Origin: Rhodocyclaceae bacterium
Lineage (GTDB): Bacteria; Pseudomonadota; Gammaproteobacteria; Burkholderiales; Rhodocyclaceae
DNA length: 64,000 nt
Direction of reading: 5' to 3'
NCBI GenBank assembly: GCA_008080565.1
Contig: VIKE01000013.1
Span: 1 to 64,000, forward strand
Shown here: positions 66 to 58,874 of the stretch, piece after piece
Position numbering within the stretch: position 1 is the stretch's first letter
Layout: every line of letters begins with the position of its first letter
Program-made: the position numbers and the translations under genes
The notes under the pieces: generated by a model
Told to the model about the DNA's origin: nothing
The model's input: only the letters and a program-made list of their open reading frames with translations
The model's database searches: none

Positions 66-1253
66 ATGCATGCTTTGCCTTACTGGCGCCTTTCGGGCTA
101 CTACTTTTTTTATTTCGCCTTCATTGGCGCCTTCTCGCCCTATTTCGGGCTCTATCTCCAATCCCTGAATTTTTCTGCCTGGGACATCGGTCTGCTGATG
201 TCGCAGATGCAGTTGATGCGCCTCTTTGGCCCCAATCTGTGGGGCTGGCTGGCTGACCGTTTTGGTCGGCGCATGGCGATCATTCGACTGGCTGCCGGGA
301 TTGGTCTGGCCGGATTCACCGCTTTTTTCTGGCTCGACAAATTGCCCGGCATGCTGGTCGCGATGGCGGTCCTGGCCTTTTTCTGGAGTGCTGCGCTGCC
401 GTTGGTCGAGACGTTGACTTTCGATCATCTGCGTGAAGAACGCGGCCGCTATAGCCGTATCCGCCTGTGGGGTTCAATCGGCTTCATCGTTGCCGTGATG
501 GGGACCGGGGCGCTGCTCGACATGGCGCCACCGGTCGGCGTGCTCTGGGTGTGCTGGGCGATTCTGGCCGGCATTCTGTTTTACGCGCTGACCCTGCCGG
601 AAGCGCCGCCGGTCCTGCATGAGAGCAACGCTCAGCCGATTGGCGAAATTCTGCGCCAGCCGAAAGTCATTGCGCTGATGACGGCCTGCTTCGCGATGTC
701 GGCGGCGCATGGCGCCTTCTACGTTTTTTACTCGATCCATCTCGATGCCCACGGCTATTCGAAGACCGAAGTCGGCTTGCTCTGGTCGCTCGGCGTGGTC
801 GCGGAAATCGTCGTTTTCATGTTCATGGCGCGGCTGTCGCGGTGGTTATCGCTACGCGCCATCCTGCTCGCCTGTTTTGGCGCAGCAGTTGTTCGCTTCC
901 TGCTCATGGGCTGGGGCGTCGAGTCGGCGGCCATCATGATTGTCGTCCAGCTACTCCACGGCCTGACGTTCGGCGCCTACCACGCGGCTTCCATCGCGGC
1001 AGTGAATCAGTGGTTTCCCGGTCGGGCGCAGGGCCGGGGACAGGCGCTGTATTCAAGTCTGTCGTTCGGCGCTGGCGGCTTGCTCGGCGCGCTGATCAGC
1101 GGCCGGACCTGGGATTCGCTGGGCTCTGGCTGGACCTTTACGCTCGGTGCCGTGTTCGCGCTGGTCGGCTTGGTGCTGGTCTGGGGCTGGGTCGGTGCGA
1201 ATGCTACGGTCAACCGGGAAAACAGGGCAAAAACGAAAGATCCTGTGCAATAA
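66..1253 (+). CDS. MFS transporter, phenylpropionate-permease-like
   Basis: Inner-membrane secondary transporter of the major facilitator superfamily, 395 residues, with about 12 hydrophobic segments and the loop motif WLADRFGRR between TM2 and TM3 (about residues 54-62). The layout (short N-terminus, 'LWGSIGF' in TM5) recalls the 3-phenylpropionic acid/nucleoside-symporter-like branch of MFS; the substrate cannot be read from sequence. The ATG at 66 is the first start in the window, and a TAAAAT box at 54-59 lies close upstream. The last 16 codons (ATVNRENRAKTKDPVQ) are written by a copy of the dispersed repeat, so the C-terminal tail is probably acquired. leuC follows after 30 bp. Confidence 0.85.
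   Translation: MHALPYWRLSGYYFFYFAFIGAFSPYFGLYLQSLNFSAWDIGLLMSQMQLMRLFGPNLWGWLADRFGRRMAIIRLAAGIGLAGFTAFFWLDKLPGMLVAMAVLAFFWSAALPLVETLTFDHLREERGRYSRIRLWGSIGFIVAVMGTGALLDMAPPVGVLWVCWAILAGILFYALTLPEAPPVLHESNAQPIGEILRQPKVIALMTACFAMSAAHGAFYVFYSIHLDAHGYSKTEVGLLWSLGVVAEIVVFMFMARLSRWLSLRAILLACFGAAVVRFLLMGWGVESAAIMIVVQLLHGLTFGAYHAASIAAVNQWFPGRAQGRGQALYSSLSFGAGGLLGALISGRTWDSLGSGWTFTLGAVFALVGLVLVWGWVGANATVNRENRAKTKDPVQ
1205..1238 (-). repeat. Dispersed repeat copy 1, coding the C-terminus of the MFS protein
   Basis: Reads CTACGGTCAACCGG then an A-rich arm, the reverse complement of the family consensus. It is translated as TVNRENRAKTKD at the end of the transporter. The core CGGT-CA-ACCG is intact and the A-rich arm has several differences. 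Confidence 0.75.
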
Positions 1254-1283
1254 TTCAAGGCTTTACAGCCCACATTACGCACC

Positions 1284-2690
1284 ATGTCGAAGACCCTTTA
1301 CGACAAGCTTTGGGAGAACCATGTCGTCCATCAGGAAGCTGATGGCACGGCCCTTCTCTATATCGATCGTCACCTCGTGCATGAAGTCACCAGCCCGCAG
1401 GCTTTCGAAGGCCTCAAGCTGGCCGGCCGCAAGCCTTGGCGCATCTCGTCCATCGTCGCGACGGCCGACCACAATACGCCGACCGATCACTGGGATGAAG
1501 GCATCAAGGATCCCGTGTCGCGTCAACAAGTGCAAACGCTGGATGACAACATCCGCGAAGTCGGTGCGCTGGCCTATTTTCCGTTCAAGGATGCGCGGCA
1601 GGGCATCGTGCACGTCGTTGGTCCGGAAAACGGCGCCACGCTGCCCGGCATGACGGTTGTTTGCGGCGACTCGCACACTTCGACGCATGGTGCTTTCGCC
1701 TGTCTGGCCCACGGTATCGGCACCTCTGAAGTCGAGCACGTGCTGGCTACCCAATGCCTGCTGCAGAAGAAGTCGAAGACCATGCTGATCGCCGTCGACG
1801 GCAAGCTCGGCAAGGGCGTCACCGCCAAGGATGTGGCGCTGGCCATCATCGGCACCATCGGCACGGCCGGCGGCAACGGCTACGCCATCGAATTCGGCGG
1901 CAGCGCTATTCGCGGCCTGAGCATGGAAGGTCGCATGACCCTGTGCAATATGGCCATCGAAGGCGGTGCGCGCATGGGCTTTGTCGCGGTCGACGACAAA
2001 ACCATCGATTATTTGAAAGGTCGCCCGTTCTCGCCGAAGGGGGATATCTGGGAAAAAGCGGTCGCCTATTGGCGCACGCTGCATTCCGACGCTGGCGCAC
2101 AGTTTGATCGCATTGTCACGCTGAAGGCCGAGGATATTCGTCCGCAAGTGACCTGGGGTACTTCGCCCGAAATGGTCGTCGCCATCGACGCCGTCGTTCC
2201 TGATCCGGCCAAGCAGACCGACCCGGTCAAGCGCGAAGGCATGGAACGCGCCCTGCAATACATGGGTCTAAATCCCAATACGCCGATCCAGGATATCGCT
2301 ATCGACAAGGTGTTCATTGGCTCCTGCACCAACTCGCGCATTGAAGACCTGCGCGAGGCGGCATCGGTGCTCAAGGGGCGTCATGTCGCGGCGACCGTCA
2401 AGCTGGCGCTGGCTGTGCCGGGTTCCGGCCTGGTCAAGCGTCAGGCTGAAGCGGAAGGGCTGGACAAGGTTTTCATCGCGGCTGGTTTCGAGTGGCGCGA
2501 ACCGGGTTGTTCGATGTGTCTGGCGATGAATGCCGACCGTCTGGAGCCGGGCGAACGTTGTGCCTCGACCTCCAACCGCAATTTCGAAGGCCGTCAGGGT
2601 CCGGGCGGACGCACCCATCTGGTCAGCCCGGCCATGGCCGCTGCTGCAGCAATTGCCGGCCGCTTTGCCGACGTGCGAGACGTTCTGTAA
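1284..2690 (+). CDS. leuC: 3-isopropylmalate dehydratase large subunit
   Basis: Aconitase-family subunit that, with LeuD, isomerises 2-isopropylmalate to 3-isopropylmalate in leucine synthesis in the cytoplasm. Length 468 matches the family. The three cysteines that hold the 4Fe-4S cluster are at 348 (GSCTNSR), 409 and 412 (GCSMC), and the substrate-binding [12 protein letters not shown] segment is present. It heads leuC-lipoprotein-leuD-leuB-asd. There is no clear Shine-Dalgarno before the ATG, and it starts only 30 bp after the transporter gene, so co-transcription is possible. Confidence 0.97.
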
Positions 2691-2705
2691 GAAGGAGCGA
2701 CGATC

Positions 2706-9179: not shown

Positions 9180-9773
9180 TTGCATCCTTCTTGCGCATTG
9201 ATCATCTGGCTGGCAGCGGTTATCGGCGTTCAGTTCGTCGGCTATGCCACCATGCTCCTGCTCGTCGCCGCGGCCTTGCTGCTGACGCCAGGTCTGGCGG
9301 GTCGCTGGTCGGCTTACGTCTGGCGGGCTCGCTGGTTGTTGCTGACCCTCTGGTTGATTCTGGCCTACAACACGCCGGGTGAAGCAATACACGACATGGC
9401 CTGGGCGCCAACCTTTGAAGGCATGGCCGAAGCCGATCTGCAGGCCGCCCGTCTGGTGACGATGCTGGCCTGTCTGGCCTGGTTGTTCCTGCGCCTCGGG
9501 CACGATGGAATGATCGCCGGTCTGTGGGGATTGCTGCAGCCGGTTCGTGCCCTCGGTTTCAGCGTCGAGCGTGTTGTCGTTCGTCTTTCGTTGGTGCTCG
9601 AAAATCTTCAGGAGCCGCCGGAAAAAGGCGCCTGGAAGCAGATGTTGGCGGCTCAGCCGCTGGTTGCCTCGAGGCAGGAGGTGCTGCATCTGAGCCTGGT
9701 GCCGTGGCTGTTGCGCGATACCATGCTGGTGGCGCTGTCCGGCCTCGGATTAATGGGAGCGGCATTGTTGTGA
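9180..9773 (+). CDS. Small integral membrane protein, CbiQ/EcfT-like
   Basis: About 197 residues with three to five membrane segments and a central stretch (LWGLLQPVRALGFSVERVVVRLSLVLENLQE) like the coupling region of CbiQ/EcfT transmembrane proteins of ECF transporters. That assignment is tentative, because no ATPase or S-component gene is nearby. I prefer the TTG start at 9180 with GGGAG eight bases upstream over the GTG at 9159, which lies inside a stable hairpin. The stop overlaps the truA GTG (GTGA), so the two are translationally coupled. The protein is typical hypothetical filler between fimV and truA in this group. Confidence 0.6.
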   Translation: MHPSCALIIWLAAVIGVQFVGYATMLLLVAAALLLTPGLAGRWSAYVWRARWLLLTLWLILAYNTPGEAIHDMAWAPTFEGMAEADLQAARLVTMLACLAWLFLRLGHDGMIAGLWGLLQPVRALGFSVERVVVRLSLVLENLQEPPEKGAWKQMLAAQPLVASRQEVLHLSLVPWLLRDTMLVALSGLGLMGAALL

Positions 9774-10590: not shown

Positions 10591-10629
10591 ATTTCAATTT
10601 TGGCCGTTTTTTCCGGTTGACCGTAGGAA
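10591..10629 (+). repeat. Dispersed repeat copy 2, in the trpF leader
   Basis: Near-consensus forward copy: ATTTCAATTTTGGCCG, T6, CCGGTTGACCGTAGGAA. It ends 11 bp before the trpF ATG, and its terminal AGGAA is in position to act as the ribosome-binding site. Confidence 0.9.
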
Positions 10630-10639: not shown

Positions 10640-11266
10640 ATGAAAACACGGATCAAAATCTGTGGCCTGACCCGCGAAGAAGATGTCGACGCGGCCGTTG
10701 CCGCCGGTGCCGATGCGATCGGCTTCGTCTTCTATCCGCCCAGCCCGCGTTACGTTGCCCCGCAGCGCGCCGCCGAACTGGCCCGGCGAATCCCGCCTTT
10801 TGTCGATGTCGTCGGCCTGTTCGTGAACGAGGTGCCGGAAGTCGTCCGCGCCGCCTGTGAAGCCCTGCCCATCAACGTCCTGCAGTTTCACGGCGACGAG
10901 GATGCAGCTTATTGCCGCCAGTTCGCCCGGCCCTATCTACGGGCGGCAAGGGTGAGGCCGGGGCTTGATCTGGTAGAATTCGCCGGCTCGTTTCCCGATG
11001 CCCGGGGTCTGTTGCTGGATGCCTTTGTCGAGGGCTACGGTGGTGGCGGCCATGTCTTTGACTGGACGCTGATCCCGCCGGATCTTCCCTCGTATCTGGT
11101 GCTTTCCGGCGGCCTGACCGCAGACAACGTCGGCGACGCCGTGCGGCGCGTGCGCCCGGTGGCGGTCGATGTCTCGTCTGGTGTCGAAGCGAGCAAGGGA
11201 ACCAAGGATCACTCGAAAATCGCTGCCTTCGTGGCGGCTGTACGGAAAGCCGATGAGTCAATATAA
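10640..11266 (+). CDS. trpF: Phosphoribosylanthranilate isomerase
   Basis: TIM-barrel isomerase of tryptophan synthesis (PRA to CdRP). 208 residues, with the catalytic cysteine in KICGLT (C8) and the phosphate-binding end [14 protein letters not shown] followed by DVSSGVE. It is first in the trpF-trpB-trpA-accD run, and its 3' end overlaps trpB by 14 bp. The repeat copy just upstream contributes the leader and probably the ribosome site. Confidence 0.96.
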
Positions 11267-12452
11267 CTTCCCCGACGCCAAGGGCCATTTCGGCCCCTAC
11301 GGTGGCGTCTTCGTGGCCGAGACGCTGTTTGGCGCACTCGATGAGTTGAAGCAAGCCTACGCCGCCGCGCAGGCCGATCCGGCTTTTCGCGCCGAATACG
11401 AATACGAGTTGAAGCATTTTGTTGGACGCCCGTCGCCGATCTACCACGCCAAGCGCTGGTCCGAAATGCTCGGCGGCGCCCAGATCTATCTCAAGCGTGA
11501 AGATCTCAACCACACCGGCGCCCACAAGGTTAACAACTGCATCGGTCAGGCCATGCTCGCCAAGCGCATGGGCAAGCCGCGCGTCATCGCCGAAACCGGC
11601 GCCGGCCAGCACGGCGTCGCGACGGCCACGGTGGCTGCTCGCTACGGTATGGAGTGCGTGGTGTACATGGGCAGCGAAGACGTCAAGCGGCAGGCCGCCA
11701 ACGTTTATCGCATGAAGCTGCTTGGCGCCACCGTCGTGCCGGTTGAATCGGGTTCGAAGACACTGAAGGATGCGCTCAATGAAGCGATGCGCGACTGGGT
11801 CACCAACATCCACAACACTTTCTACATTATCGGCACGGTTGCCGGTCCGCATCCGTACCCGATGCTGGTCCGCGATTTCCAGAAAATCATCGGCGAGGAA
11901 TGTCTGGTTCAGATGCCCGAAATGACGGGGCGTCAGCCGGATGCCGTGATCGCCTGTGTCGGCGGCGGTTCCAACGCGATGGGTATTTTCTATCCCTACA
12001 TCAACGTCGAAGGCGTCCGCCTGATCGGTGTCGAAGCGGCCGGTGACGGCATGGAAACCGGCCGCCATTCGGCTTCGCTGACCGCTGGCGTGCCCGGCGT
12101 GTTGCATGGCAACCGGACTTACCTGTTGCAGGACGAAGACGGCCAGATCATCGAAACGCATTCGGTCTCGGCCGGCCTCGACTACCCGGGTGTTGGCCCG
12201 GAACACGCTTGGCTCAAGGATCTTGGCCGCGCTGAATATCAGCCGGTAACGGACAGCGAAGCGCTTGCCGCTTTCCACACCCTGTGCCGCATCGAAGGCA
12301 TCATCCCGGCGCTCGAATCCAGCCATGCGCTGGCCTACGCCGCGAAGCTGGCGCCGACGTTGCCGAAGGACAAGATTCTGCTGGTCAATCTCTCCGGCCG
12401 GGGTGATAAGGACATGCACACCGTGGCCGAAAAATCGGGAATTGTCTTCTGA
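11253..12452 (+). CDS. trpB: Tryptophan synthase beta chain
   Basis: PLP enzyme condensing indole with serine. 399 residues from the ATG at 11253, which gives the canonical N-terminus ([18 protein letters not shown]). The PLP lysine is in HTGAHKVNN (about residue 90), and the phosphate-binding loop GGGSNAMG is present. The start lies within the trpF 3' end, and the TGA overlaps the trpA ATG by one base, consistent with coupled synthesis of the alpha/beta complex. Confidence 0.97.
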
Positions 12453-19583: not shown

Positions 19584-19622
19584 TTTCCACGGTCAACCGG
19601 AAAAAATGCCCAAATTTGAAAT
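19584..19622 (-). repeat. Dispersed repeat copy 3, between metZ and rhlE
   Basis: TTTCCACGGTCAACCGG, then an A6 arm and GCCCAAATTTGAAAT. Reverse orientation, very close to consensus. It lies in the 186-bp gap before rhlE. Confidence 0.9.
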
Positions 19623-24476: not shown

Positions 24477-24497
24477 ATGTTGAGAAGGAATGTGAAT

Positions 24498-25103
24498 ATG
24501 TCTAAAGTAATAAAACTTATACCCGTTAAGCCTGACATGAACCATAAACCCGCCCATCGCAGGCAAGGCCAGTTTGGCTTTACGCTGATCGAGCTGATTG
24601 TCGTTATTATCATTCTCGGTATCTTGGCGGCTGTCGCTTTGCCGCGCTTTGTCAATCTGCAGCGCGATGCCCGTATTGCCAAGTTGCAGGCGGCTCGGGG
24701 CAGCGTCTCGGCTGCTGCGGCGTTGGTCCATGCCACTGCTTTTTCGCGGGCTGGTCTGGCTGATACGGCGCCCTGCGCCGGTGGGGGTACGGCAGATAAC
24801 GCGACAGGGTTGACTGGTACTGTGTGTACCGAAAGCGGCCTGATCAACATGGTGTACGCCTACCCTGCAGTGACGGCGATCGGTACGCCCGGCATTTTGT
24901 CCATGGCCGGCCTGACCGGTGTTTTCAACCCGACCGCTGCGCAACTGCAGGCTGAGGGTTATACCTACGACGTCAATGGAAATGTCGCTACCTTTGGCGT
25001 TGTTGGTGCGACGACTGCTTCGAGCTGTTTCTTTACTTATACCCAACCCTTGGCACCGAATAATGCAGCGCCAGTCAGCGGGCTGACCACGACCGGATGT
25101 TGA
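24498..25103 (+). CDS. mshB: Type IV prepilin, MshB/MshA-like
   Basis: About 201 residues with the class III signal [21 protein letters not shown], cut by prepilin peptidase before Phe28, leaving Glu at +5. I chose the ATG at 24498 because AGAAGGA lies eight bases upstream; this gives a long 27-residue leader. ATG 24537 would give a 14-residue leader but lacks a ribosome site, and ATG 24477 directly abuts the mshF stop. Cysteines are in two pairs. The order before mshA suggests MshB, although it could be a second pilin paralogue. Confidence 0.8.
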
Positions 25104-25128
25104 TTTTTTAATTTTTTAGGAGTTAGCA

Positions 25129-25551
25129 ATGAAAACGATGCAAAAAGGTTTTACCCTCATCGAACTGATCGTCGTGATCGTCATTCTCGGCATTCTGGCG
25201 GCGACTGCGCTGCCGAAATTTGTCGATTTGCGTACTGATGCGGCTGATGCAGCGGTAGAGGGCGTGGCTGGTGCGCTGACGTCGGCTGCATCAATCAATT
25301 ATGCTACATGCATGGCGCGCGGTACCGCCCACGCAACCTGCGCTCGCCTCAACGCTGCAGGTGCTTGCGCAACGCTATCGACATCTGCTGTTGGTGGCAT
25401 GGTTGGCAATGCTTTGCCGGCCGGATACTCAGTTACTGCGGATGGCACATGTGCTGCTCAGGCGGCCGGAACCGCAGTGTCTTGCACGATTAGTTCGACC
25501 GCCAGTACCCCGGCTCAAACTGCGACCGCGACAGTTATTTGCACTGGCTAA
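25129..25551 (+). CDS. mshA: Probable major MSHA pilin
   Basis: 140-residue prepilin with a compact six- or seven-residue leader ([25 protein letters not shown]), Glu+5 and the LPKFVDLRTDA start of the globular domain seen in MshA. Several cysteines can form C-terminal loops. The ribosome site is the strongest in the locus (TAGGAG) after a T-rich stretch, and a factor-independent terminator follows, both as expected for a major subunit made in excess. The assignment to MshA rather than MshB is by size, order and terminator. Confidence 0.85.
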   Translation: MKTMQKGFTLIELIVVIVILGILAATALPKFVDLRTDAADAAVEGVAGALTSAASINYATCMARGTAHATCARLNAAGACATLSTSAVGGMVGNALPAGYSVTADGTCAAQAAGTAVSCTISSTASTPAQTATATVICTG

Positions 25552-26118
25552 TTGAACCATCTGACTGAAGAAACGCGGCTTTCGGTACCGACTACGGGTT
25601 TTCCCCGTCGTCTATCCGAGGCACGTGGAAACCCGCCGCAAGGCGGGTTTTTACCGTTTGCAAGCAGTCGCGGTTTTACGCTCATCGAGCTGGTGGCCGT
25701 GATGGTGATCATTGGTATTCTTGCGGTCGTTTTGTTGCCCAAGTGGAGCGGTAGTTCGGGTTTCGACGAGCGTGGGTTTCGTGATCGCGTAGTCGCTGGG
25801 CTGCGCTATGCGCAGAAGTCGGCCATAGCCAGTCGGCGGACGGTTTGCGCCAGTTTTTCTGCCCCTCCGGCGCGTGTTACCTTTAATATTTCGGCAGCCA
25901 ACGGAGCTGCGAATTGTGCAGTTGGCAATGCGCTGGCTGGGCCGGATATTATTCCTCTGATTGTGACGGCGACCGGAAATGTTACTTTCGCAGCGCTGCC
26001 AGCCGATGTGGTATTTGATGCCGGTGGGCGACCTGGCGGGGCTGCATCGATCAATGTCTCCGGGCTTCCCGCTGCGCTGGCGATCACCGTTGAGGCGGAA
26101 ACGGGCTATGTCCATTAG
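25552..26118 (+). CDS. mshC: MshC-like minor prepilin (GspH/FimT type), start uncertain
   Basis: Minor pilin with processing site SSRG/FTLIELVAVMVIIGILAVVLLP and a GspH-type body. The frame contains no ATG, GTG or TTG between the terminator at 25629-25652 and the Gly-Phe site. The only usual start is the TTG at 25552, immediately after the mshA TAA, giving a 41-residue leader translated through the terminator hairpin (RGNPPQGGFLP). Reinitiation after mshA (TAA-TTG) or a rare start codon is implied. The last 11 bases overlap mshD. Confidence 0.75.
   Translation: MNHLTEETRLSVPTTGFPRRLSEARGNPPQGGFLPFASSRGFTLIELVAVMVIIGILAVVLLPKWSGSSGFDERGFRDRVVAGLRYAQKSAIASRRTVCASFSAPPARVTFNISAANGAANCAVGNALAGPDIIPLIVTATGNVTFAALPADVVFDAGGRPGGAASINVSGLPAALAITVEAETGYVH
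25629..25652 (+). terminator. Factor-independent terminator between mshA and the mshC body
   Basis: AAACCCGCC, loop GCAA, GGCGGGTTT followed by TT: a perfect 9-bp stem and T5. It lies within the mshC leader frame, so readthrough would set the ratio of major pilin to the downstream minor pilins. Confidence 0.85.
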
Positions 26119-26668
26119 CACCTCCCTGCAGCGCGGCATCACGCTGGTCGAGCAGATCGTGTTCATCGTCATCGTCAGTGTTGGCGTGATCGGTCTTGTT
26201 TCGGTGATGAATCCGGCCATCCGGGCCAGCGCCGATCCAATGCTGACGAAGCAACTTGTCGCCATGACCGAGTCACTGCTCAACGAGGTCATGCACCAAC
26301 CGTTCACATGGTGCGATCCGGATGATCCAGCAGCGTCGACGGCGCAGTCTTACGGCGATTGCGTCAGTCCTCAAAATACAAATACCACAGCGTCATTCAG
26401 TGGTGTCGAGACTCGTTTTGGCATTTCGCCTGCTTCGCCTTTCGACAACGTGTCCGACTACGGCGTTCATTCGTGGGCCAATATCGACGATCCCTCCGGC
26501 AGCAACGCCATGGCAGGCTATACCGCCAGTGTTGCCGTCGCGCGGGCCGGAACTGCTCTGGGCCTGGCCGATGACACGGCGGCCCTTAGCGTGACGGTGA
26601 CCGTTTCCCGCGGCGCCGAAACCTTTTCTTTGACCGGCTATCGTTTTCGTTATGCGCCGCGCATTTGA
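26108..26668 (+). CDS. mshD: MshD-like minor prepilin
   Basis: 186-residue prepilin with leader MSISTSLQRG/ITLVEQIVFIVIVSVGVIGLVSVM. Ile replaces Phe at +1, as in MshD/GspI-type minor pilins, and Glu+5 is kept. The ATG at 26108 overlaps the mshC end by 11 bases. The middle has a Cys pair (WCDPDDP, GDCVSP). Its 3' end overlaps mshO by 17 bases inside a dispersed-repeat copy. Confidence 0.82.
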   Translation: MSISTSLQRGITLVEQIVFIVIVSVGVIGLVSVMNPAIRASADPMLTKQLVAMTESLLNEVMHQPFTWCDPDDPAASTAQSYGDCVSPQNTNTTASFSGVETRFGISPASPFDNVSDYGVHSWANIDDPSGSNAMAGYTASVAVARAGTALGLADDTAALSVTVTVSRGAETFSLTGYRFRYAPRI

Positions 26669-27473
26669 TTTTCGGCCGTTTTTTCGGGTTGACCGTGGAT
26701 TCACACTGGTCGAGATGATCATTTCGATTGTCATCACCGGCATCATCGTTTCGATGGTGGCGATGTTCGGGCGCGGGCAGGTTGATGCCTACATCGATGC
26801 CGGCAACCGGGCCGAATTGTCGGATGCGGCCGATACCACCTTGCGCCGGGTCGCCCGCGAATTGCAATCGGCACTACCCAACAGCGTGCGGCTTTCCGGC
26901 AGCAACTTTCTCGAGTTTGTGCCGATTCACGATGCCGGGCGTTACCGTGTCGAGCTGGATTCCACGGGGGGCGGCGACCTTCTGAATTTCGCCAGCAATA
27001 CCGACGCGACTTTCGATGTCCTCGGGCCGCCGGTGACCATTCTGGCTGGTGACCAACTGGTCGTTTTCAACCTGGGTCAGCCCGGTTCGGATGTGTATGA
27101 AGGCACCAGCCGGCGGGCGGCGACCGCCGGTGTTGGCCTCAACAACATCACTTTTGCCCCGGCTGGCACGCAGTTTCCGCTGACCTCACCGCAAAACCGC
27201 TTCCAGATCGTTGGTGGCCCGGTGACCTATGAATGTACCGGGGCGGCGCTGGTCCGGCATTCCGGTTACGGTTTTCTCGCCGCGCAGCCCGTGGCCTTTG
27301 GCGCGCTGGGCGGGGTGACTGCGCTCCTGGCCGACAACGTTACCGGCTGTGCCTTCAATTACACACCGGCGATTCTCCAGCGCAACGGCTTGGTTGTCCT
27401 GCGCCTGACGCTGACGCGCAACGGCGAGTCGGTCGAACTGCTGCATCAGGTCGATGTGCTGAATACGCCATGA
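26652..27473 (+). CDS. mshO: MshO-like minor prepilin
   Basis: 273-residue minor pilin of the GspJ/MshO type. The class III signal FRVDRG/FTLVEMIISIVITGIIVSM has Glu+5. The leader FDFRPFFRVDRG, including the -1 glycine, is encoded by dispersed-repeat copy 4. The body has an MshO-like ending (LVVLRLTLTRNGESVELLHQVDVLNTP). The stop TGA overlaps the mshP ATG. Confidence 0.82.
   Translation: MRRAFDFRPFFRVDRGFTLVEMIISIVITGIIVSMVAMFGRGQVDAYIDAGNRAELSDAADTTLRRVARELQSALPNSVRLSGSNFLEFVPIHDAGRYRVELDSTGGGDLLNFASNTDATFDVLGPPVTILAGDQLVVFNLGQPGSDVYEGTSRRAATAGVGLNNITFAPAGTQFPLTSPQNRFQIVGGPVTYECTGAALVRHSGYGFLAAQPVAFGALGGVTALLADNVTGCAFNYTPAILQRNGLVVLRLTLTRNGESVELLHQVDVLNTP
26664..26701 (+). repeat. Dispersed repeat copy 4, coding the MshO leader
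   Basis: TTTGATTTTCGGCCG, T6 then CGGGTTGACCGTGGATT. Forward orientation. It is read as FDFRPFFRVDRGF, so its last codons supply the Gly and Phe of the prepilin processing site. Confidence 0.88.
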
Positions 27474-27958
27474 TTTCAATTTTGCCCGTTTTTTCCGGTC
27501 GACCGTGGAAGTCTGGAACTTCGCTTCCAGGGCACCAGCGCGGTGTCTCGATCATCACCGGGGTCTTCCTGCTGCTGCTGATGTCAGTTCTGGCCGCCGT
27601 CATCGCCAATGTTGTTTCAACAGCACATGTAAACCAGGCGGCCGATATCGGCGGCGCGAGGGCCTATCAGGCGGCGCGGGCTGGTGTGGAGTGGGGCATG
27701 TTCCAACTTGATCCGAATGCCCAGAGCGCCGGGCTGCCGGCCTGTGTCAATGGCACGCCGGCCATCCCGGGGCATGCCGTGACGGTCACTTGCCAGAGCT
27801 GGGATACCACCGAAGGCACTCGGCAGCTTCGTTTCTACCGAATTGTTTCGCTGGCGATCGCTGCCGGCGTCAAGGCGCCGGGTATCGAGCGGCAGGTCGA
27901 GGTGACGCTGGAAAAATGCCGGGATCCGGCGAGAGTGATCGCGCCATATGACTGCTGA
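27470..27958 (+). CDS. mshP: MshP-like pilus biogenesis protein
   Basis: 162 residues: basic N-terminus, one membrane segment (GVSIITGVFLLLLMSVLAAVIANVV, about 26-50), then an ARGALxG-like YQAARAGVEWGMFQLD stretch as in PilX/MshP proteins. There is no canonical Gly-Phe processing site with Glu+5, as is normal for MshP. The first 14 residues (MISILPVFSGRPWK) come from dispersed-repeat copy 5, read in a different frame from copy 4 in mshO. The start overlaps the mshO stop (ATGA). Confidence 0.82.
   Translation: MISILPVFSGRPWKSGTSLPGHQRGVSIITGVFLLLLMSVLAAVIANVVSTAHVNQAADIGGARAYQAARAGVEWGMFQLDPNAQSAGLPACVNGTPAIPGHAVTVTCQSWDTTEGTRQLRFYRIVSLAIAAGVKAPGIERQVEVTLEKCRDPARVIAPYDC
27473..27510 (+). repeat. 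Dispersed repeat copy 5, coding the MshP N-terminus
   Basis: ATTTCAATTTTGCCCG, T6, CCGGTCGACCGTGGAA. Forward orientation with centre CG in the CGGT-NN-ACCG core. It starts three bases after the mshP ATG begins. Confidence 0.9.
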
Positions 27959-27970
27959 ACGGGGGGAAGA

Positions 27971-38612: not shown

Positions 38613-38650
38613 ATTTCGAATTTTGTGCTTTTTCCCGGTTGACCGTGGGA
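38613..38650 (+). repeat. Dispersed repeat copy 6, after mshN
   Basis: ATTTCGAATTTTGTGC, T5, CCCGGTTGACCGTGGGA. Forward orientation, intergenic. Confidence 0.85.
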
Positions 38651-39592: not shown

Positions 39593-39631
39593 TTCCTACG
39601 GTGAACCGGAAATTTTGCCCAAATTTGAAAT
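39593..39631 (-). repeat. Dispersed repeat copy 7, coding the end of the DUF2238 protein
   Basis: TTCCTACGGTGAACCGG, then AAATTTTGCCCAAATTTGAAAT. Reverse orientation, centre GA. Read on the minus strand it encodes ISNLGKISGSP and the stop of the membrane protein. Confidence 0.88.
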
Positions 39632-40234
39632 CAGGCGTTTCACCTGCCGGTCGTGCCAGCCGGAGAGCACGGCCAATGCCGTGCTCGACCCGATCAGCGC
39701 CATGAACATGTCGGACTGGGTGTCCCAGACATCGCCCTGGGTACCGAGGAATTCGTCGGCGCCCTGGCCCATGGCCAGCGCTGCGGCCCACTCGATCAGC
39801 TCGTAGCTGGCGCTGATGGCGAGCGCGACGCAGATGCACAGGAAAGCCGTCATCCTTCGCCCGACCACGTAGCCGCCACGCACGAATATCTCGCGGGCGA
39901 CCATGGCCGGCACGAAGCCCTGCATGAAATGGCCGATCTTGTCGTAGGGATTGCGCACCGTGCCGAGCACGTCCTGCATCCAGAAGCCGAGCGGCACGCG
40001 GGCGTAGGTGTAGGCGCCGCCACCGATCAGCACCAGCGCGTGGATGGCGATCAACACCGTGAGCAGCGTCGTCAGCGGGTAGCTTTGGCGGGTGGCGATC
40101 ATCAGCGGCAGGGCGATCAGGACCGGCGCCACTTCCATGACCCAGGTTGCCCGGTCGAAGGGGGCGATGCCGGAAACGATGAGCGCTGCGATGACGATGG
40201 CGGCCAGCGTGGCGTTAAGGGTGTCGCGTGTCAT
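39596..40234 (-). CDS. DUF2238 (YjdF-like) inner-membrane protein
   Basis: 212 residues with five or six membrane helices and the conserved polar segments YDKIGHFMQGFVPAM, SYELIEWAAA and DEFLGTQGDVWDTQSDM of DUF2238. Function unknown. One base separates it from the recQ stop, so it is the last gene of the minus-strand chain. Its final 11 residues are supplied by the dispersed repeat, outside the conserved domain. Confidence 0.85.
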   Translation of the reverse strand: MTRDTLNATLAAIVIAALIVSGIAPFDRATWVMEVAPVLIALPLMIATRQSYPLTTLLTVLIAIHALVLIGGGAYTYARVPLGFWMQDVLGTVRNPYDKIGHFMQGFVPAMVAREIFVRGGYVVGRRMTAFLCICVALAISASYELIEWAAALAMGQGADEFLGTQGDVWDTQSDMFMALIGSSTALAVLSGWHDRQVKRLISNLGKISGSP

Positions 40235-40235: not shown

Positions 40236-42044
<1,809 letters not shown>

Positions 42045-42082
42045 TCCCACGGTGAACCGGAAATTTTGCTCAAAATCGAAAT
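42045..42082 (-). repeat. Dispersed repeat copy 8, between lpxH and recQ
   Basis: TTCCCACGGTGAACCGG, AAATTTTGCTCAAAATCGAAAT. Reverse orientation, centre GA. It fills the whole 40-bp gap between the lpxH stop and recQ ATG. Confidence 0.9.
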
Positions 42083-49092: not shown

Positions 49093-49129
49093 TGCCACGG
49101 TCAACCGGGAAAAAAGGCCAAAAATGAAA
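49093..49129 (-). repeat. Dispersed repeat copy 9, upstream of the binding-protein gene
   Basis: TGCCACGGTCAACCGGG, A6, GGCCAAAAATGAAAC. Reverse orientation; it abuts the hairpin at 49129. Confidence 0.88.
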
Positions 49130-49169
49130 CAGCCCCGGGGTCCCGAAAATTCGGGAACACCGGGGCTGT
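49129..49169. terminator. Two-part hairpin downstream of dnaJ
   Basis: Outer stem ACAGCCCCGG/CCGGGGCTGT and inner stem TCCCGAA/TTCGGGA. It is the likely end of the dnaK-dnaJ transcript, although it lies 17 bp beyond the vestigial dnaJ end and about 110 bp beyond the present dnaJ stop. Confidence 0.7.
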
Positions 49170-49280: not shown

Positions 49281-50408
49281 TTACTCAGCAAAAAAGTCCT
49301 TAACTTTATCCATCCACGACTTGGAGCGTGGATTGTGTTTGCCGCTGTTGTCGCGACTGGACTCTTCCAGTTCGCGCAGCAGCTCCTTCTGGCGCTCGGT
49401 CAGGTTGACCGGCGTTTCGACGACGACGTGGCACATCAGGTCACCATGGGTGTGGCTGCGCACCCCCTTGATGCCCTTGCCGCGCAGGCGGAAGACCCGT
49501 CCGGACTGGGTTTCGGCCGGAATCTTGATGGCTGCGGCGCCGTCCAGCGTCGGGATTTCGATCTCGCCGCCGAGCGCGGCGGCGGTGAAGGAAATCGGCA
49601 TCTCGCAATGCAGGTCGTTGTGGTCGCGGGTGAACACGGCGTGCTGCTTGAGGTGAATCTGCACGTACAGATCACCCGGCGGGCCGCCATTGACGCCATG
49701 CTCGCCTTCGCCCGAAAGCCTGATGCGATCGCCTTCATCGACCCCGGCTGGAATCTTGACGGCCAGCGTCTTGTGTTGCTTGACGCGGCCGGCGCCGTCG
49801 CAATGCTTGCATGGTTCGGCAATGAAGCGGCCGGTGCCGTGGCACTTGTGACAGGTCTGCTGGATCGAGAAGAAGCCTTGTTGCAGGCGCACCTGGCCGG
49901 ATCCGCCGCAGGTCGGGCAGGTCTTCGGCTGAGTGCCGGGCTTGGCGCCGGAGCCGTTGCAGGGCTCGCAGACTTCCATGGTCGGAATGCGAATCTTGGT
50001 TTCCGTGCCGTGGGCAGCCTGTTCGAGCGTGATTTCGAGGTTGTAGCGCAGGTCGGCGCCGCGATAGATGTTCGAGCGACCACCACCGCCACCGCCGCCG
50101 CGACCGCCGAAGATTTCGTCGAAGATGCCGCCGAAGGCATCGGCAAAGCCGGCGCCACCGCCACCGCCCATGCCGGCCTGCTGGTCAAGCCCGGCATGGC
50201 CATACTGGTCGTAGGCCGAGCGTTTCTGGCTATCCGACAGGATTTCGTAGGCTTCCTTGGCTTCCTTGAACTTCTCCTCGGCCGCCGGATTGTCCGGATT
50301 GCGGTCGGGGTGATGCTTCATGGCCAGTTTGCGGTAGGCCTTCTTTATTTCTTCATCGGAGGCGTCGCGATTGACGCCAAGAATTTCGTAAAAATCGCGT
50401 TTTGACAT
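49281..50408 (-). CDS. dnaJ: Chaperone protein DnaJ
   Basis: 375 residues. J domain 1-70 with HPD (MKHHPDRNP), Gly/Phe-rich region about 75-110 ([22 protein letters not shown]), four CxxCxGxG zinc motifs about 135-210 ([38 protein letters not shown]) and the C-terminal substrate domain. It stimulates DnaK ATPase. The end [12 protein letters not shown] is duplicated in vestigial form downstream. A hairpin separates it from dnaK. Confidence 0.97.
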
Positions 50409-50491: not shown

Positions 50492-52429
50492 TTACTTCTT
50501 GTCCTTGTTCACTTCGGTGAATTCGGCATCGACGACATCGCCTTCAACGGTCTTTTCACCGGCTTCTGCCTGCTGACCAGCCGCACCGGCGGCAGCGCCT
50601 TCGGCCTGTTGCTGGGCGTACATTTTTTCACCCAGTTTCTGGGCCGCTGCCGACAGGGCTTCGGTCTTGGCGGTGATGGTTTCCTTGTCGCCGTCGCGCA
50701 GCACATCCTCGACATCCTTGATGGCGGCTTCGATGCTGGCTTTTTCGGCCGCGTCGAGCTTGTCGCCGTACTCGGTCATCGACTTCTTGACCATGTGCAC
50801 CATGCCGTCGGCCTGGTTGCGGGCATCGGCCAATTCGTGCGCCTTCTTGTCGTCCTCGGCGTGCAGCTCGGCATCCTTGACCATGGCCTGGATTTCCGCT
50901 TCGCTCAAGCCCGAGTTGGCCTTGATGGTGATCTTGTTTTCCTTGCCGGTGGCCTTGTCCTTGGCCGTGACGTGCATGATGCCGTTGGCGTCGATGTCGA
51001 AAATGACTTCGATCTGCGGCGTGCCACGCGGAGCCGGCGGGATGCCTTCGAGGTTGAACTGGCCGAGGCTCTTGTTACCGGAAGCCACTTCGCGCTCACC
51101 CTGCAGCACGTGGATGGTCACGGCGGACTGGCTGTCGTCGGCGGTCGAGAAGACTTGCGAAGCCTTGGTCGGGATCGTCGTGTTCTTCTGGATCAGCTTG
51201 GTCATGATGCCGCCCAGGGTTTCGATACCGAGCGACAGCGGGGTGACGTCGAGGAGCAGCACGTCCTTGACTTCGCCCTGCAGCACGCCGCCCTGGATGG
51301 CTGCGCCGACAGCAACGGCTTCGTCAGGATTGACGTCCTTGCGCGGTTCCTTGCCGAAAATTTCCTTAACTTTTTCCTGAACCTTGGGCATGCGCGACTG
51401 GCCGCCGACCAGGATGATGTCGTCGATGTCGGAGATCTTGCAGCCGGCATCCTTGAGGGCCATGACGCAAGGCGCAACGGTACGCTCGACCAGTTCATCG
51501 ACCAGCGATTCGAACTTGGCACGGGTAACCTTCAGTGCCAGGTGCTTCGGACCGGAAGCGTCAGCGGTGATATAGGGCAGGTTGATTTCGGTCTGCTGGC
51601 TGGAGGACAGCTCGATCTTGGCCTTTTCAGCGGCTTCTTTCAGGCGCTGCAGGGCCAGCACGTCAGCCTTGAGGTTGACGCCGGATTCTTTCTTGAATTC
51701 GTCGATGATGTAGTCGATCAGGCGCTGGTCGAAGTCTTCGCCGCCAAGGAAGGTGTCGCCGTTGGTGGCCAGAACTTCAAACTGGGTTTCGCCGTCGACA
51801 TTGGCGATTTCGATGATCGAGATGTCGAAGGTGCCGCCACCGAGGTCATAAACGGCGATCTTGCGGTCGTTCTTGCTGGTCTTGTCCATGCCGAAGGCGA
51901 GAGCAGCAGCGGTCGGCTCGTTGATGATGCGCTTGACTTCCAGACCGGCGATGCGGCCGGCGTCCTTGGTCGCCTGGCGCTGGCTGTCGTTGAAGTAGGC
52001 CGGGACGGTGATGACGGCTTCGGTGACTTCTTCGCCGAGGTAATCTTCGGCGGTCTTCTTCATCTTGCGCAGCACTTCAGCTGAAACCTGCGGCGGGGCG
52101 ATTTTCTTGTCGCGCGCTTCAACCCAGGCGTCGCCGTTGTCGGCCTTGACGATCTTGAAGGGCATCAGGGCGATGTCCTTCTGCACTTCCTTCTCTTCGA
52201 AGCGGCGGCCGATCAGGCGCTTGACGGCGTACAGCGTGTTCTTCGGGTTGGTCACGGCCTGGCGCTTGGCCGGGGCACCGCACAGAATCTCGCCATCTTC
52301 GGTGTAGCCGATGATGGACGGCGTGGTGCGCGCGCCTTCTGCGTTTTCGATAACCTTCGGCTGGCCGCCTTCCATGATGGCGACGCAGCTGTTGGTGGTG
52401 CCGAGGTCAATACCGATGATCTTGCCCAT
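50492..52429 (-). CDS. dnaK: Chaperone protein DnaK (Hsp70)
   Basis: 645 residues from the ATG at 52429 (AAGGAACGAATC upstream), giving the canonical [15 protein letters not shown]. Nucleotide-binding domain with phosphate loops ([29 protein letters not shown]), the interdomain linker DVLLLDV, the substrate domain and a Gln/Ala-rich lid ending in an acidic tail ([11 protein letters not shown]). A sigma-32-type promoter and repeat copy 10 lie upstream, so it can be expressed apart from grpE. Confidence 0.98.
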
Positions 52430-52507: not shown

Positions 52508-52545
52508 TTCCACGGTCAACCGGAAAAATCGCCCAAAAATGAAAT
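52508..52545 (-). repeat. Dispersed repeat copy 10, between grpE and dnaK
   Basis: TTCCACGGTCAACCGG, AAAAATCGCCCAAAAATGAAAT. Reverse orientation, near consensus; it starts four bases after the grpE stop. Confidence 0.92.
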
Positions 52546-52548
52546 GTG

Positions 52549-53106
52549 TTATTTGCCCTTGGCGACCATGACCAGGGCCGGACGCAGCACGCGGTCGGCG
52601 ATGGTGTAGCCCTTTTGCAGCACGGTGACGACGGTGTTCGGCTCCTGCTCCGAATCGACCATGCCGATGGCCTGATGCTTGTGCGGATCGAACTTCTCCC
52701 CAGTCGGGCTGACTTCGTTGAGAGCGTTCTTTTCGAAGGCGGCAACCAGTTGCTTCAGCGTCAGTTCGACGCCGGCCTTGAAGCTCTCCACGGTCTGTTC
52801 CGGCACGGCCAGCGCGGCTTCCAGGCTGTCCTTGACGGCCAGCAGTTCGCCGGCAAAACGCTCGACGGCGAACTTGTGTGCCTTGGAAATGTCTTCCTGT
52901 GCACGGCGGCGAATATTCTCACCCTCGGCCTTGGCGCGCAGCCAGGCATCGTGGTGTTCGGCGGCCAGCAATTCGAGAGCGCGGAACTGCTCCTCGATGC
53001 TCGGCAGTGTGTCGGTGTGTTCTTCGACGGTTGGCTCGGCTGCAGGCGCTTCAATGGCAGGTTCGCTGCCCAGCATTGGTTCCTGACTGTTTTCAGTGTT
53101 CGACAT
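52549..53106 (-). CDS. grpE: Nucleotide exchange factor GrpE
   Basis: 185 residues from the ATG at 53106 (GGGAGATCC upstream). Acidic disordered N-terminus, long coiled coil about 35-80 ([27 protein letters not shown]), and a C-terminal beta domain with [31 protein letters not shown]. It releases ADP from DnaK. A strong sigma-32-type promoter precedes it. Confidence 0.96.
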
Positions 53107-55663: not shown

Positions 55664-57283
55664 TCAAACCTTGAATCGACCAACCAGCGTAGCCAGGCCT
55701 TCGGCCAGCCGCTTGAGGTCGTGTGCCGCACCGGCTGTCTGTTCGACCGTGCCCGAGTTTTCGCGGGCCATGCCGGCAATGGCTTCGATGCTGCTTTCGA
55801 CATCACCGGAGAAGCGGCGTTGCTGGTCGGTGGCTGCGGCAATCGCATCAAGGCCGTGACCGACTTCGGTGACCGAACCATTCGTTGCTTCCAGCACGTT
55901 GGACACCGAGTGAACGGCCGCCTGACTGCTTTCCAGATGCGCCATGCCGGCCTCGATACTGCGCCGGACGGCCACAGACTGGGCGCTGAGCTGGGCGGTG
56001 ATGGCATCGATTTCGGTCGCCGAGCGCGACGACTTTTCGGCCAGCTTGCGAACCTCATCGGCCACGACCGCGAAACCACGTCCCTGTTCGCCGGCGCGGG
56101 CGGCCTCGATTGCCGCGTTGAGGGCCAGTAGATTGGTCTGCTCGGCGATGTCTTTCACTTCGCGGGTCATCGTCGTGATCGCTTCGGTGTTCTTGACGAA
56201 GTTGTTAACTGAGTCGGCCATTTCCGTTACGGCGCGCTCGACGACATTCATTTCGCCGAGCAGCACGCTCAGGTTGCGGCTACCCTCGGTGGCGCGGGCC
56301 AGACTTTCCTGTGACTGATGCTGGACGTGTTCGGCGCTCTGGGCAATCGAGGAAATGCTCGAAACCAGTTGTTCGACGGCCGAGGCGGCTTCGTTCGATT
56401 TCTCGTTTTGCTGATGCGAACTTTGCGTGACGCGGTCGGCGCTGTCGGAGAGTGCAGCGACGCGGGCCGAAACCTGGCTGGCCGAGTCGCGGACCTGACG
56501 GACCAGCTGGTTGAAGTTCTCCATCATTTCGTTGAAAACCTGCGCCGCCTGGCCGACTTCGTCGTTGCCCTTGATTGGCAGACGGCGCGTGAGGTCGCCT
56601 TCGCCCCGGGCAATGTCGGCAAGACCACTGCGCATGGCCTCGAGCGGCTTGCTGACGAAGTGGTTGGTGATCAGGTAGATGAGGACGAGCAGAGCGCCCA
56701 GCGCAGCCAGTGCAACGCCGGCAATCTTGATACGGAAAGCCGATACCTGCGCCTCGACCGAGTCGAGCGACACCTTCATGCTGACGACGCCGAGGACGGT
56801 TCCTTCGGGAACCTGGTGGCAGAGGATGCAGTCCTTGCCGAGATAGTTCTTCGATGCCTTGGTCGGGTTGATGACATGCAGGAAAGAGTTGCCGTTGGCG
56901 GACTCAACCGACATGTACGGGTTGCCGGTAGCCATCACTTCTTTTTCGAGTGCATCGAGCGGACGCTTGCTCTTGGTGTCGGGGCCGTAAAGTTTGACCA
57001 CGGCGTCGCTACGGGCGACCACCAGATCCTTGATGACGGAGAGCTGTTCGATCTGGTCGAGGAAGACTTCACGCTGGCCTACGGTGCCGGTCAGCATCAT
57101 GCCGGTCAGTCCGGCCATGGTCATTTCGTGGATGCTCTTGGAAAAGTCCTGGGCCTGCAGGATCGCCGTCTCTCGATTGACCTGGGTGGTCCACACTATT
57201 GCTCCTGCCCAGATGATGGCCAGTACTACCCAGATGGCCGCCGTCAGGCGGATCCAAATCTTCAAATCGGCGAAGCGCGGCAT
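55664..57283 (-). CDS. Methyl-accepting chemotaxis protein with CxxCH sensor motif
   Basis: 539 residues. TM1 about 13-33, periplasmic sensor about 34-180, TM2 about 183-206, HAMP about 207-260, and a signalling domain with the hairpin tip [32 protein letters not shown]. The sensor holds C152-I-L-C-H156, the c-type haem attachment motif, in a region like DUF3365-type redox sensors. It may detect redox state, oxygen or nitric oxide (inference). There is no C-terminal CheR-tether pentapeptide. Encoded opposite the kinase gene. Confidence 0.92.
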
Positions 57284-57315
57284 GATGTCCCTCGAGTTAC
57301 TGCCACCGTTTTCAG

Positions 57316-58371
57316 CTAGGCGGTCAGGTCTATTTGCTGGATTGTGCCAGCCGTACCCGCTTCATGCAAAAAAATTCCAGAAGTGCGAATTTGCCCGAGC
57401 AATTCATTGGCATTTGTCTTGATGTCAAATGGCGTAGCGGTGCGGTTTAGTGCGATCGCGCCGACCCCGGCGTCGGCCAACGACTGAAGCGTCTCTTTGT
57501 CAGTTTTGTCAGGTGTCCACAGCGCCAGCTGTTTAAACGCCGCGTCGTTTTCATCGATCCAGCCGTTCTGATCGCCATCGAGCGTCGCCAATTCCTCAAA
57601 CCCGTCGCCGCTGGTCGGGCCGAACAGTTCGCTGCCATTGTTGATCTTGCCGTCGCCGTTGCGATCAAAGGCCAGGAAGCCGCTGCCCGGGGTCAGGAAG
57701 TTGATATTTTCCGCACTGCCGTCCGCATTGAGGTCGAAGGCGAAGCGCTGGTCGGTCAATTGTGCCGCCATGCCGGCGAAGTTAAGGACGAGCGGGTCGG
57801 TCTTGCGTGCAGCATCGCCGAGGCGGAGGCTGATATCGTTTTCTTCATGATACTGGCGCGACATCGACAACTGCAGGTCGAACTTGATCTCGCGGCCATC
57901 GGCGGTCTTTACCGTGCCGCTGGCGGCAAAATTCGTCTGCTCGACCTCACTGTAGGATTCATGGCGGTCGTACTCGATGCCGAAGCCGGCTGGCGTCGGG
58001 CGGGCCTGTGTTCCGGTGGCCGGTGGCGCTTCGATGACTGGGGTTTCTGAATTCGGCTGGAGTTCGCTGGCATCGAAAATGCGGATCCGGTGTCCGGTCA
58101 GCAGCTCGAGCATGGAGCGAATGAAACGCAGCCGCGGATCGGCACCGAGCTCGCTATCCTCGGTTGCTTCACTGGCGCTGGCTTGGCTGGCCGCCTTGCC
58201 GGCATCAGACAGGCTGACGTTGTCGTTGCGCGCCGCTCGGGGGCGCGAATCTTCCCCGGCAAATTGCGGGCGCTGCGACCCGACCCACATTTTCAGCGAT
58301 TCGCGGACTTCATGGCGCTGGACGCTGACGTGCGACGAGGCCATTTGCAGGCTGCTGCTGGCAATTTTCAT
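57316..58371 (-). CDS. Calcium-loop (EF-hand-like) protein of unknown function
   Basis: 351 residues from the ATG at 58371 (GGAGG upstream; the earlier ATG at 58392 lacks one). There is no signal peptide. The opening [18 protein letters not shown] and the [13 protein letters not shown] stretch recur, as I recall, in uncharacterised proteobacterial proteins. From about 205 there are Asp-rich loops: [28 protein letters not shown] and [16 protein letters not shown], the DxNxDG pattern of calcium-binding loops, typical also of the ends of some RTX-like secreted proteins. Secretion by a type I or other route is conceivable but not shown. Confidence 0.7.
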
Positions 58372-58427
58372 GGGGGCCTCCGTCGAATGCATTGGGATGC
58401 ATCATTAACGGCGGCCGTGGGGAGAAG

Positions 58428-58874
58428 TTAAGGTCGGTAAAGATGCGGTTGTATCCAGCGTTTCAGCGAGCCGAGGTCGAGCGCGCCGCTCTGGCGGGCG
58501 ATCTCGCGGCCATTTTTAAAGATGGCCAGGGTTGGAATGCTGCGGATACTGAAACGGGCGGCCAGTTGCTGTTCTGCTTCGGTATCGACCTTGACCAGAC
58601 GGGCGTAGGGTTCGAGGTCGATGGCGGCCTGATGGAAATTGGGGGCCATCTGCCGGCACGGGCCGCACCACGGCGCCCAGAAATCGACGACGACCGGCAG
58701 GTCGTTGCGCGAGATGTGGCGGTCGAAGTTGGCGGCGGTCAGTTCGGCGGGTTCGCCAGTGAACAGCGGCTGTTTGCACTGGCCGCAGTTGGGCGAATCT
58801 TTCAATTTTTGGCCAAAAATCCGGTTGACCGTGGAACAGTGCGGACAGACGACGTGCAGGCTTTCTTCAGGCAT
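58428..58874 (-). CDS. trxC: Thioredoxin 2
   Basis: 148 residues from the ATG at 58874 (GGAG upstream). N-terminal zinc ribbon with Cys10, Cys13, Cys30 and Cys33, then a thioredoxin fold with active site W69-CGPC and cis-Pro segment IPTLAIF. It is a cytoplasmic, often oxidative-stress-induced disulfide reductase. The linker between the two CxxC pairs (STVNRIFGQKLKDSPN) has the same 16-residue length as in E. coli TrxC, yet its DNA is a full copy of the dispersed repeat. Confidence 0.94.
   Translation of the reverse strand: MPEESLHVVCPHCSTVNRIFGQKLKDSPNCGQCKQPLFTGEPAELTAANFDRHISRNDLPVVVDFWAPWCGPCRQMAPNFHQAAIDLEPYARLVKVDTEAEQQLAARFSIRSIPTLAIFKNGREIARQSGALDLGSLKRWIQPHLYRP
58800..58836 (+). repeat. 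Dispersed repeat copy 11, inside trxC
   Basis: TTTCAATTTTTGGCCAAAAAT, then CCGGTTGACCGTGGAAC on the plus strand. It is coding on the minus strand as the TrxC zinc-ribbon linker. Confidence 0.8.

Follow-up and report, generated by a model that had tools for sequence, protein, structure and literature searches.

To our knowledge, self-DNA uptake tags have so far been reported for two bacterial families only. The present work concerns a dispersed 38-bp repeat found in a 64,000-nucleotide stretch of a Rhodocyclaceae bacterium (GenBank assembly GCA_008080565.1, contig VIKE01000013.1, positions 1 to 64,000 of the forward strand; hereafter the window). The repeat is probably a DNA uptake sequence of the Azonexus/Dechloromonas group, working like the DNA uptake sequence (DUS) of Neisseriaceae and the uptake signal sequence (USS) of Pasteurellaceae, and the probability of this reading is put at about 0.75. 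Taken together, its features are those of DNA uptake sequences, and no other class could be named that has all of them. An uptake function is what we infer from this pattern, and the same holds for the candidate receptor, binding, uptake and selection considered below. Genomes, contigs and loci are denoted by G, C and L numbers, and the genome that holds the window is called the source genome.

In the excerpts available of the source, the USS is described as having 9-nt cores and two AT-rich regions within up to 32 nt, with the inner core GCGG and two types (PMC12616744). The Azonexus motif resembles it in joining a core to two A/T-rich tracts, in being long and discontinuous, in its high copy number and in having dialects with a kept inner core. 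The cores themselves differ, being AAGTGCGGT in Hin-USS and ACAAGCGGT in Apl-USS according to the same excerpts (PMC12616744) and CCGGTTGACCGTRG here. The Azonexus core is also longer and quasi-palindromic and belongs to another bacterial class, and its role in uptake is putative. The USS string TGCGGT is present in the CA-type dialects described below, on the other strand, and no homology is claimed from this.

The DUS, as excerpts of the sources describe it, is a continuous sequence of up to about 13 nt with the core CTG and without A-tracts, in which it differs from the present motif (PMC12616744, PMC3630211). The likeness lies in species dialects around a kept inner core, which follow phylogeny (PMC3630211, in excerpt), and in inverted pairs that serve as terminators, a core-genome location and, as far as one mobile element shows here, absence from recently acquired genes (PMC2397512, in excerpt). 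The receptor of the DUS, ComP, is known, whereas that of Azonexus is hypothesised. Judged by its letters, the motif is neither DUS nor USS. No report of an uptake sequence in Azonexus, Dechloromonas or Rhodocyclaceae was found in the excerpts searched of the open-licence PubMed Central literature, preprints being outside the scope, which is weak evidence of absence.

Architecture and abundance of the motif

The 38-bp unit consists of the core CCGGTTGACCGTRG and two phased A-tracts, and its consensus is ATTTCAATTTTGGCCRTTTTTTCCGGTTGACCGTGGNA (61 exact cores aligned, from 426.5 kb of the source genome). Information reaches background beyond about -22 and +18 of the core. The A/T tracts lie at -6 to -1 and -17 to -12, spaced 11 bp, and a short third tract occupies -21 to -19. 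Within the tracts A and T are interchangeable and the TpA step is avoided. At sites from the source genome, G305 and named loci, TpA was counted in 22 of 229 pure-AT inner tracts and in 4 of 177 pure-AT outer tracts, compared with 110 and 32 expected if columns were independent. Since TpA avoidance is a mark of A-tract DNA, the form that is recognised is probably double-stranded DNA, and the A-tracts together with the dialects point to recognition of double-stranded DNA over an RNA stem. The preliminary description had suggested a two-fold protein-binding site or an RNA stem; the former agrees with the protein-site-like conservation. The RNA stem or element was rejected, as two single units showed no folding advantage over shuffles (z +0.53 and +0.63), and Rfam gave no match anywhere in the window.

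The high-copy family that the window had suggested is real. The pattern CCGGTTNACCGTRG, at up to one mismatch, has 309 + 352 = 661 matches in the whole assembly (5.2 Mb, 152 contigs), and the reversed control pattern has 11 + 12 = 23, so that the proposed comparison of genome-wide copy number with chance turns out clearly in favour of a family. When over-represented 10-mers were counted with no prior motif, the top 14 listed were all motif pieces, both in the source-genome sample and in 400 kb of G305. The source-genome stretches were picked for holding motif matches and their density is therefore biased upward; the 400-kb stretches of G305, G147 and G297 are contiguous and unpicked.

Dialects and taxonomic range

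The inner core GTYGACCG is common to all dialects, of which three types are clear: GTTGACCGTRG (dialect I), GTCGACCGTGAA (dialect II) and a CA type, GTYGACCGCAR, made up of the overlapping spellings of G177/G222 (III) and G338 (IV). The top 10-mers of G147 include GTTGACCGTG and GTCGACCGTG(AA), and G297 has nothing comparable. Smaller samples gave GTYGACCGCAG-type words in G177 and G222, GTCGACCGCAR in G338 and GGTCGACCGT in G240, with the caveats that a simple tandem repeat heads the G222 list and that the signal is weaker in G177 and G240. Every species examined retains an A-tract near -19 to -16. For the tract near -9 to -5, the signal is clear in dialect I and G177, moderate in G240 and weak in G147, G338 and G222. 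As a side observation, TGGCTACTTT and TCCGGGGCTT are further over-represented 10-mers of G147 and have no plain relation to the motif.

The 76 genomes of the genus fall into two halves for GTYGACCGYRRNA: 38 have 197-1118 copies, the remaining 38 have 90 or fewer, and the control never exceeds 23. The dialect II spelling GTCGACCGTGAA has 318 copies in G147, 330 in G341 and 125 in G240, palindromes counting twice, and at most 36 in each other genome. A family set of 297 genomes, 12 of the genus and 285 of other genera, was searched with GTYGACCGCARNA, which is enriched in 10 of the 12, weak in G112 (23 vs 4) and not enriched in G254. None of the 285 has more than 11 copies of it (range 0-11). 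With CCGGTTNACCGTRG at one mismatch the 285 have at most 32 copies; a mild excess over control was seen in some, such as all three g21 genomes (23-32 vs 7-10), G118 (19 vs 3) and G198 (21 vs 8). For both patterns the other genera are at or near background, and among the family genomes searched the motif is restricted to one genus. Named records with the motif, among the matches listed, are Azonexaceae, Azonexus, Dechloromonas, uncultured Rhodocyclaceae and several unspecific metagenome bins, and from these titles the genus is taken as the Azonexus/Dechloromonas group.

In a trpB tree the strong dialect I carriers cluster: they need 3 changes, the shuffled mean is 7.7, and none of 500 shuffles reached so low a number. 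G147 and G341 come out as sisters. The tree takes 27 of 30 genomes (G311, G325 and G337 do not have the whole gene and were left out), and 12 of its 24 inner branches are weak. G329, G337 and G355 have 83-131 matches to the long pattern of dialect I when up to 3 mismatches are allowed, but exact inner cores number just 23-46, which points to a further dialect with an altered core in these genomes.

Motif copies in the window

The window holds 11 copies, all at the positions first reported. The 16-bp core at up to 3 mismatches has 11 matches there vs 0.65 expected in shuffles. A position matrix trained on 286 sites, all outside the window, recovered the same 11 with scores of 47.4-66.6 and none else above threshold, the null maximum being -2.3 (0.64 Mb of simulated third-order Markov sequence). 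The copies are as follows.

1202..1239, minus strand: inside the 3' end (C-terminal end) of a major facilitator superfamily (MFS) transporter gene (66-1253, plus strand); score 48.7.
10591..10628, plus strand: intergenic, 11 bp upstream of the phosphoribosylanthranilate isomerase (PRAI, trpF) gene at 10640; score 66.6.
19585..19622, minus strand: intergenic, between a Cys/Met metabolism pyridoxal phosphate (PLP)-enzyme gene and a DEAD-box helicase gene; score 64.4.
26663..26700, plus strand: in the leader region of a prepilin open reading frame (ORF; 26652-27473, plus strand); score 50.6.
27473..27510, plus strand: at the junction of ORF 26652-27473 and the next possible ORF; score 58.8.
38613..38650, plus strand: intergenic, 37 bp past a plus-strand gene; score 49.8.
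39594..39631, minus strand: over the last codons of a DUF2238 gene (39596-40234, minus strand); score 54.9.
42045..42082, minus strand: immediately upstream of a RecQ-type helicase gene (40236-42044, minus strand); score 51.4.
49093..49130, minus strand: intergenic, 150 bp from dnaJ (49281-50408, minus strand); score 57.6.
52508..52545, minus strand: intergenic, between grpE (52549-53076, minus strand) and dnaK (50492-52429, minus strand); score 63.8.
58799..58836, plus strand: inside the zinc-ribbon coding region of thioredoxin-2 (trxC), which lies on the minus strand; score 47.4.

The core lies on the minus strand in 6 of the 11. The preliminary description had reported kept arms, CGGT and ACCG, around a variable centre. 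One copy, 26663, has GGGT in place of CGGT. The centre of CGGTNNACCG is TG in 8 of 11, TC in 2 and CG in 1, so that the variation described came mostly from reading the copies in both strand senses. No tandem arrays are present and no named repeat class was found to match, as that description had held. Copies within genes, the phased A-tracts and the variation between species had escaped it.

The prepilin ORF 26652-27473 has an N_methyl match at residues 13-36 and an alternative gene-caller start at 26715. It lies within a cluster of prepilin-like ORFs (24477-32173) whose last member is a 1400-aa DUF6701 protein and which has two motif copies in or beside it; perhaps this is a mannose-sensitive haemagglutinin (MSHA)-type pilus cluster. 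A plasmid search with window positions 1-25000 gave 22 records at 60-90% identity, none of them over most of the query.

Origin of the copies

Coding copies were compared with their orthologues in species without the dialect concerned (G147 and G297 for dialect I; G305, G297 and source-genome stretches for dialect II). Pairs were kept where a single alignment spanned the motif with at least 60 bases on each side, taking the best match per subject sequence, and gaps were scored within 15 columns of the motif; one site may count twice. Two of the site lists, among them the one used for gene context, leave out cores whose tracts have A/T at fewer than 9 of their 12 positions. Gapless pairs made up 5 of 9 for dialect I and 17 of 24 for dialect II (22 of 33), and pairs of equal length 7 of 9 and 18 of 24. 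No unit-sized insertion was seen, as the motif copy was more than 17 bases longer in 0 of the 33. The relative truly has no inner core in 12 coding pairs; 7 of these show no gap and 9 show no difference in length. In trxC, the clearest example, motif-free G297 has other zinc-ribbon codons and no gap. Identity over the motif in coding pairs is 62% and 69%, vs 77% and 78% for the whole alignment, a shortfall compatible both with recombinational replacement and with mutation; for the DUS, recombination has been argued for (PMC2397512, in excerpt). In pairs that are not wholly coding, the length differences are -1, 0, 6, 14, 14, 23, 24 and 52 for dialect I and -8, -2, 0 and 0 for dialect II, with no constant insertion length.

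These comparisons bear most directly on the possibility that the unit is a small mobile repeat, such as a miniature inverted-repeat transposable element (MITE), a repetitive extragenic palindrome with its associated transposase (REP/RAYT) or a Rickettsia-type palindromic element, spreading by transposition or retro-insertion. REP repeats, the bacterial interspersed mosaic elements (BIME) and MITE repeats are dispersed, short, often extragenic and hairpin-capable, as is the motif. A mobile repeat would account for the high copy number, the fairly sharp edges and the many intergenic copies; at one intergenic site the relative G297 does not have 37 of the 38 bases. The intergenic site 52508 would fit a discrete insertion, loss of sequence from the relative being the other possible reading. 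This origin is nevertheless unlikely. No coding motif copy among 33 is more than 17 bases longer and 9 of the 12 core-lacking pairs are of equal length, with the caveat that a pair was counted only where one alignment spanned the motif; the trxC zinc ribbon is gapless, and elsewhere there is no constant insertion length. A dialect change throughout a genome is unexpected of a transposed unit, and the single motif unit, unlike REP/BIME and MITE repeats, is stemless.

Placement along the genome

Gene context was assigned with a simple codon-usage gene caller. The 78 sites of the source-genome sample, which is about 79% coding, comprise 39 intergenic, 11 partial and 28 coding sites. The corresponding numbers are 34, 8 and 31 for the 73 sites in 400 contiguous kb of G305 (86% coding), and 49, 6 and 96 for the 151 dialect II sites of G147 (83% coding), where each of 17 palindromes was entered twice. 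Copies are thus found in and between genes and are enriched in permissive places. Coding copies favour some strands and frames, and lie opposite to the gene in 22 of 28, 20 of 31 and 53 of 96 cases in the source genome, G305 and G147, respectively; an orientation preference has been reported for known uptake sequences (PMC2346458, in excerpt).

A 500-600 bp (roughly) motif-bearing stretch aligns across many loci, some in both orientations: G305 at 114435 and 242446; L044, L090, L102, L103 and L109; and, in the source genome, L148 at about 11370-11820. In L148 it is intergenic and has two motifs on opposite strands. The aligning stretch has no Rfam match and is possibly another dispersed repeat.

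The distribution along chromosomes was considered with regard to a binding site for a chromosome-organising, replication or segregation protein, for example a nucleoid protein or a matS-, Noc- or KOPS (FtsK-orienting polar sequence)-like site. Such a site would agree with the protein-site-like conservation, the phased A-tracts, the near-palindromic core, the restriction to one genus and the absence from a mobile element described below, and also with the mild strand bias in the first 400 kb of G305 (48 vs 25) and the sparse middle of two closed chromosomes. It is improbable all the same, for half of the genus is without the motif and sister species spell it differently, which is unusual for chromosome maintenance. 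With the strict motif, the counts are 41 + 37 in G305 and 22 + 28 in G335, and the strands are intermixed throughout both closed chromosomes with no KOPS-like switch. Spacing is not even in 400 kb of G305 (coefficient of variation, CV, 1.05) or of G147 (CV 1.17), and in G305 it is near random.

Inverted pairs and hairpins

Neighbouring dialect II sites in 400 kb of G147 make up 20 pairs with members no more than 100 bases apart, and 17 of these pairs form the exact palindrome CACGGTCGACCGTG, so that the two-fold symmetry proposed for the window copies is partly real. Most of these inverted pairs are flanked by A-tracts on both sides. One that was folded gave a 20-bp hairpin ending in U5 (-36.8 kcal/mol), which is intrinsic-terminator-like, and inverted pairs of the DUS are reported as terminators (PMC2397512, in excerpt). 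For dialect I, two adjacent pairs in the source-genome sample fold at -50 and -53 kcal/mol with the U-run on the 5' side, and no pairs within 100 bases were found in 400 kb of G305.

A regulatory role, as promoter, operator, terminator or RNA element, is very improbable. In its favour, some copies (10591, 42045) lie close upstream of start codons, and inverted pairs form hairpins, of which one resembles a terminator. Against it, 28 of 78 sites in the source genome, 31 of 73 in G305 and 96 of 151 of dialect II are wholly inside genes, neither distance nor strand relative to genes is fixed, neither of the two single units tested folds, and Rfam gave no match for the window.

Uptake machinery and foreign DNA

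Genes for DNA uptake are present in the genus, in motif-free species as well. ComEC (PF03772) was found in 71 of the 76 genomes of the genus and in 51 of the 51 good ones, DprA (PF02481) in 12 of 12 genomes tested, and ComP_DUS (PF16732) scored above cut-off in 70 of the 76. In the source genome, the PF16732 pilin heads a same-strand run of ORFs, the last of 1518 aa, which looks like a minor-pilin operon with PilY1. When 20 PF16732 pilins were aligned, no plain dialect pattern could be seen by eye. A ComP-type pilin was also considered as a marker of motif carriers and rejected, because PF16732 is nearly ubiquitous in the family.

Foreign DNA could be examined in G322, where comEC appears to be split by 33.7 kb (C33 109601-143320; L318, L319), the N-terminal piece being a 28-position match below the family cut-off. 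The insert, a mobile element of low GC content (51.5%), carries genes for a serine recombinase and a phage-type integrase, along with a type ISP restriction enzyme and a family B DNA polymerase. It holds 0 copies of the motif by either pattern tried. About 5.7 would be expected (705 GTYGACCGYRRNA in about 4.2 Mb), and the Poisson chance of none is about 0.003, for this one element. G342 has two comEC matches about 32.5 kb apart. As a side observation, L132 at 9384-9418 is the sole stretch with the long pattern in a viral contig collection and may be a phage carrying host DNA.

Several observations weigh against an uptake function. Motif-free species (G297, G254) have ComEC, DprA and a ComP-like pilin too, and PF16732 is found in 130 of 141 genomes across the family (3 of them of this genus), with 129 counted above cut-off. 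Among carriers, the comEC of G322 (582 copies) is apparently split, and that of G293 (887 copies) is in fragments and has a stop, so that tags and a working ComEC are not always together now. Copies are sparse mid-sequence in both closed genomes, which is unexplained; the sparse zones are at about 2.09-3.05 Mb of G305 C1 (gaps of 358 and 413 kb) and about 1.75-2.83 Mb of G335 C1, and may perhaps be the terminus half or accessory-rich DNA. Equally unexplained is the mild strand bias of 48 vs 25 in the first 400 kb of G305 (two-sided binomial 0.0095). A bias was also observed among the intergenic copies of G305 1-400000 (23 vs 11), and in G147, with palindromes removed, the strands stand at 66 vs 51 (0.20). 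In the 400 kb of G305, the motif is absent for longest over 41 kb (C1:336681-378060), a stretch that carries RNA-polymerase and elongation-factor genes; a prophage was rejected as the cause of this gap since, of 10 proteins scanned, 2 match RNA polymerase beta-subunit families and 3 an elongation-factor family. Dialect I has one copy per about 5-8 kb, and the tags of Haemophilus and Neisseria are denser than this.

The orthologue comparison has its own points of this kind. It is a small test in which the relative retains the inner core in 21 of 33 coding pairs, because G147 and G305 carry the other dialect, and 5 of the 12 core-lacking coding pairs have gaps. None of the 12 pairs that are not wholly coding is gapless, and one of them is 52 bases longer with the motif, so that an insertion is possible there.

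Proposed mechanism and implications

If the motif is an uptake sequence, the competence machinery would recognise it and preferentially import DNA of its own kind. A surface receptor associated with the type IV pilus may read GTYGACCG and a dialect-specific flank in double-stranded DNA, and the phased A-tracts beside the core could ease the bend or kink needed for passage through the outer-membrane pore. ComEC and DprA would then carry and protect the strand for recombination. Tagged fragments would be imported more often, copies would build up at tolerant places by mutation and recombination, and the tag would drift into dialects between species.

On balance, it also seems probable that self-DNA uptake tagging arose a third time, probably independently, in the Azonexus/Dechloromonas group of free-living betaproteobacteria, where one genus has three or more dialects and many motif-free species and the core-plus-phased-A-tract build is like that of the Pasteurellaceae USS. 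If true, this third case, from an environmental group, would help to show whether the uptake machinery dictates the core-plus-A-tract build. A single genus that has several dialects as well as many motif-free species would let the receptor be found by comparison, and the question of why own DNA is preferred would become testable outside host-associated species. Adding the motif to DNA would then also offer a practical route to transform Azonexus/Dechloromonas bacteria.

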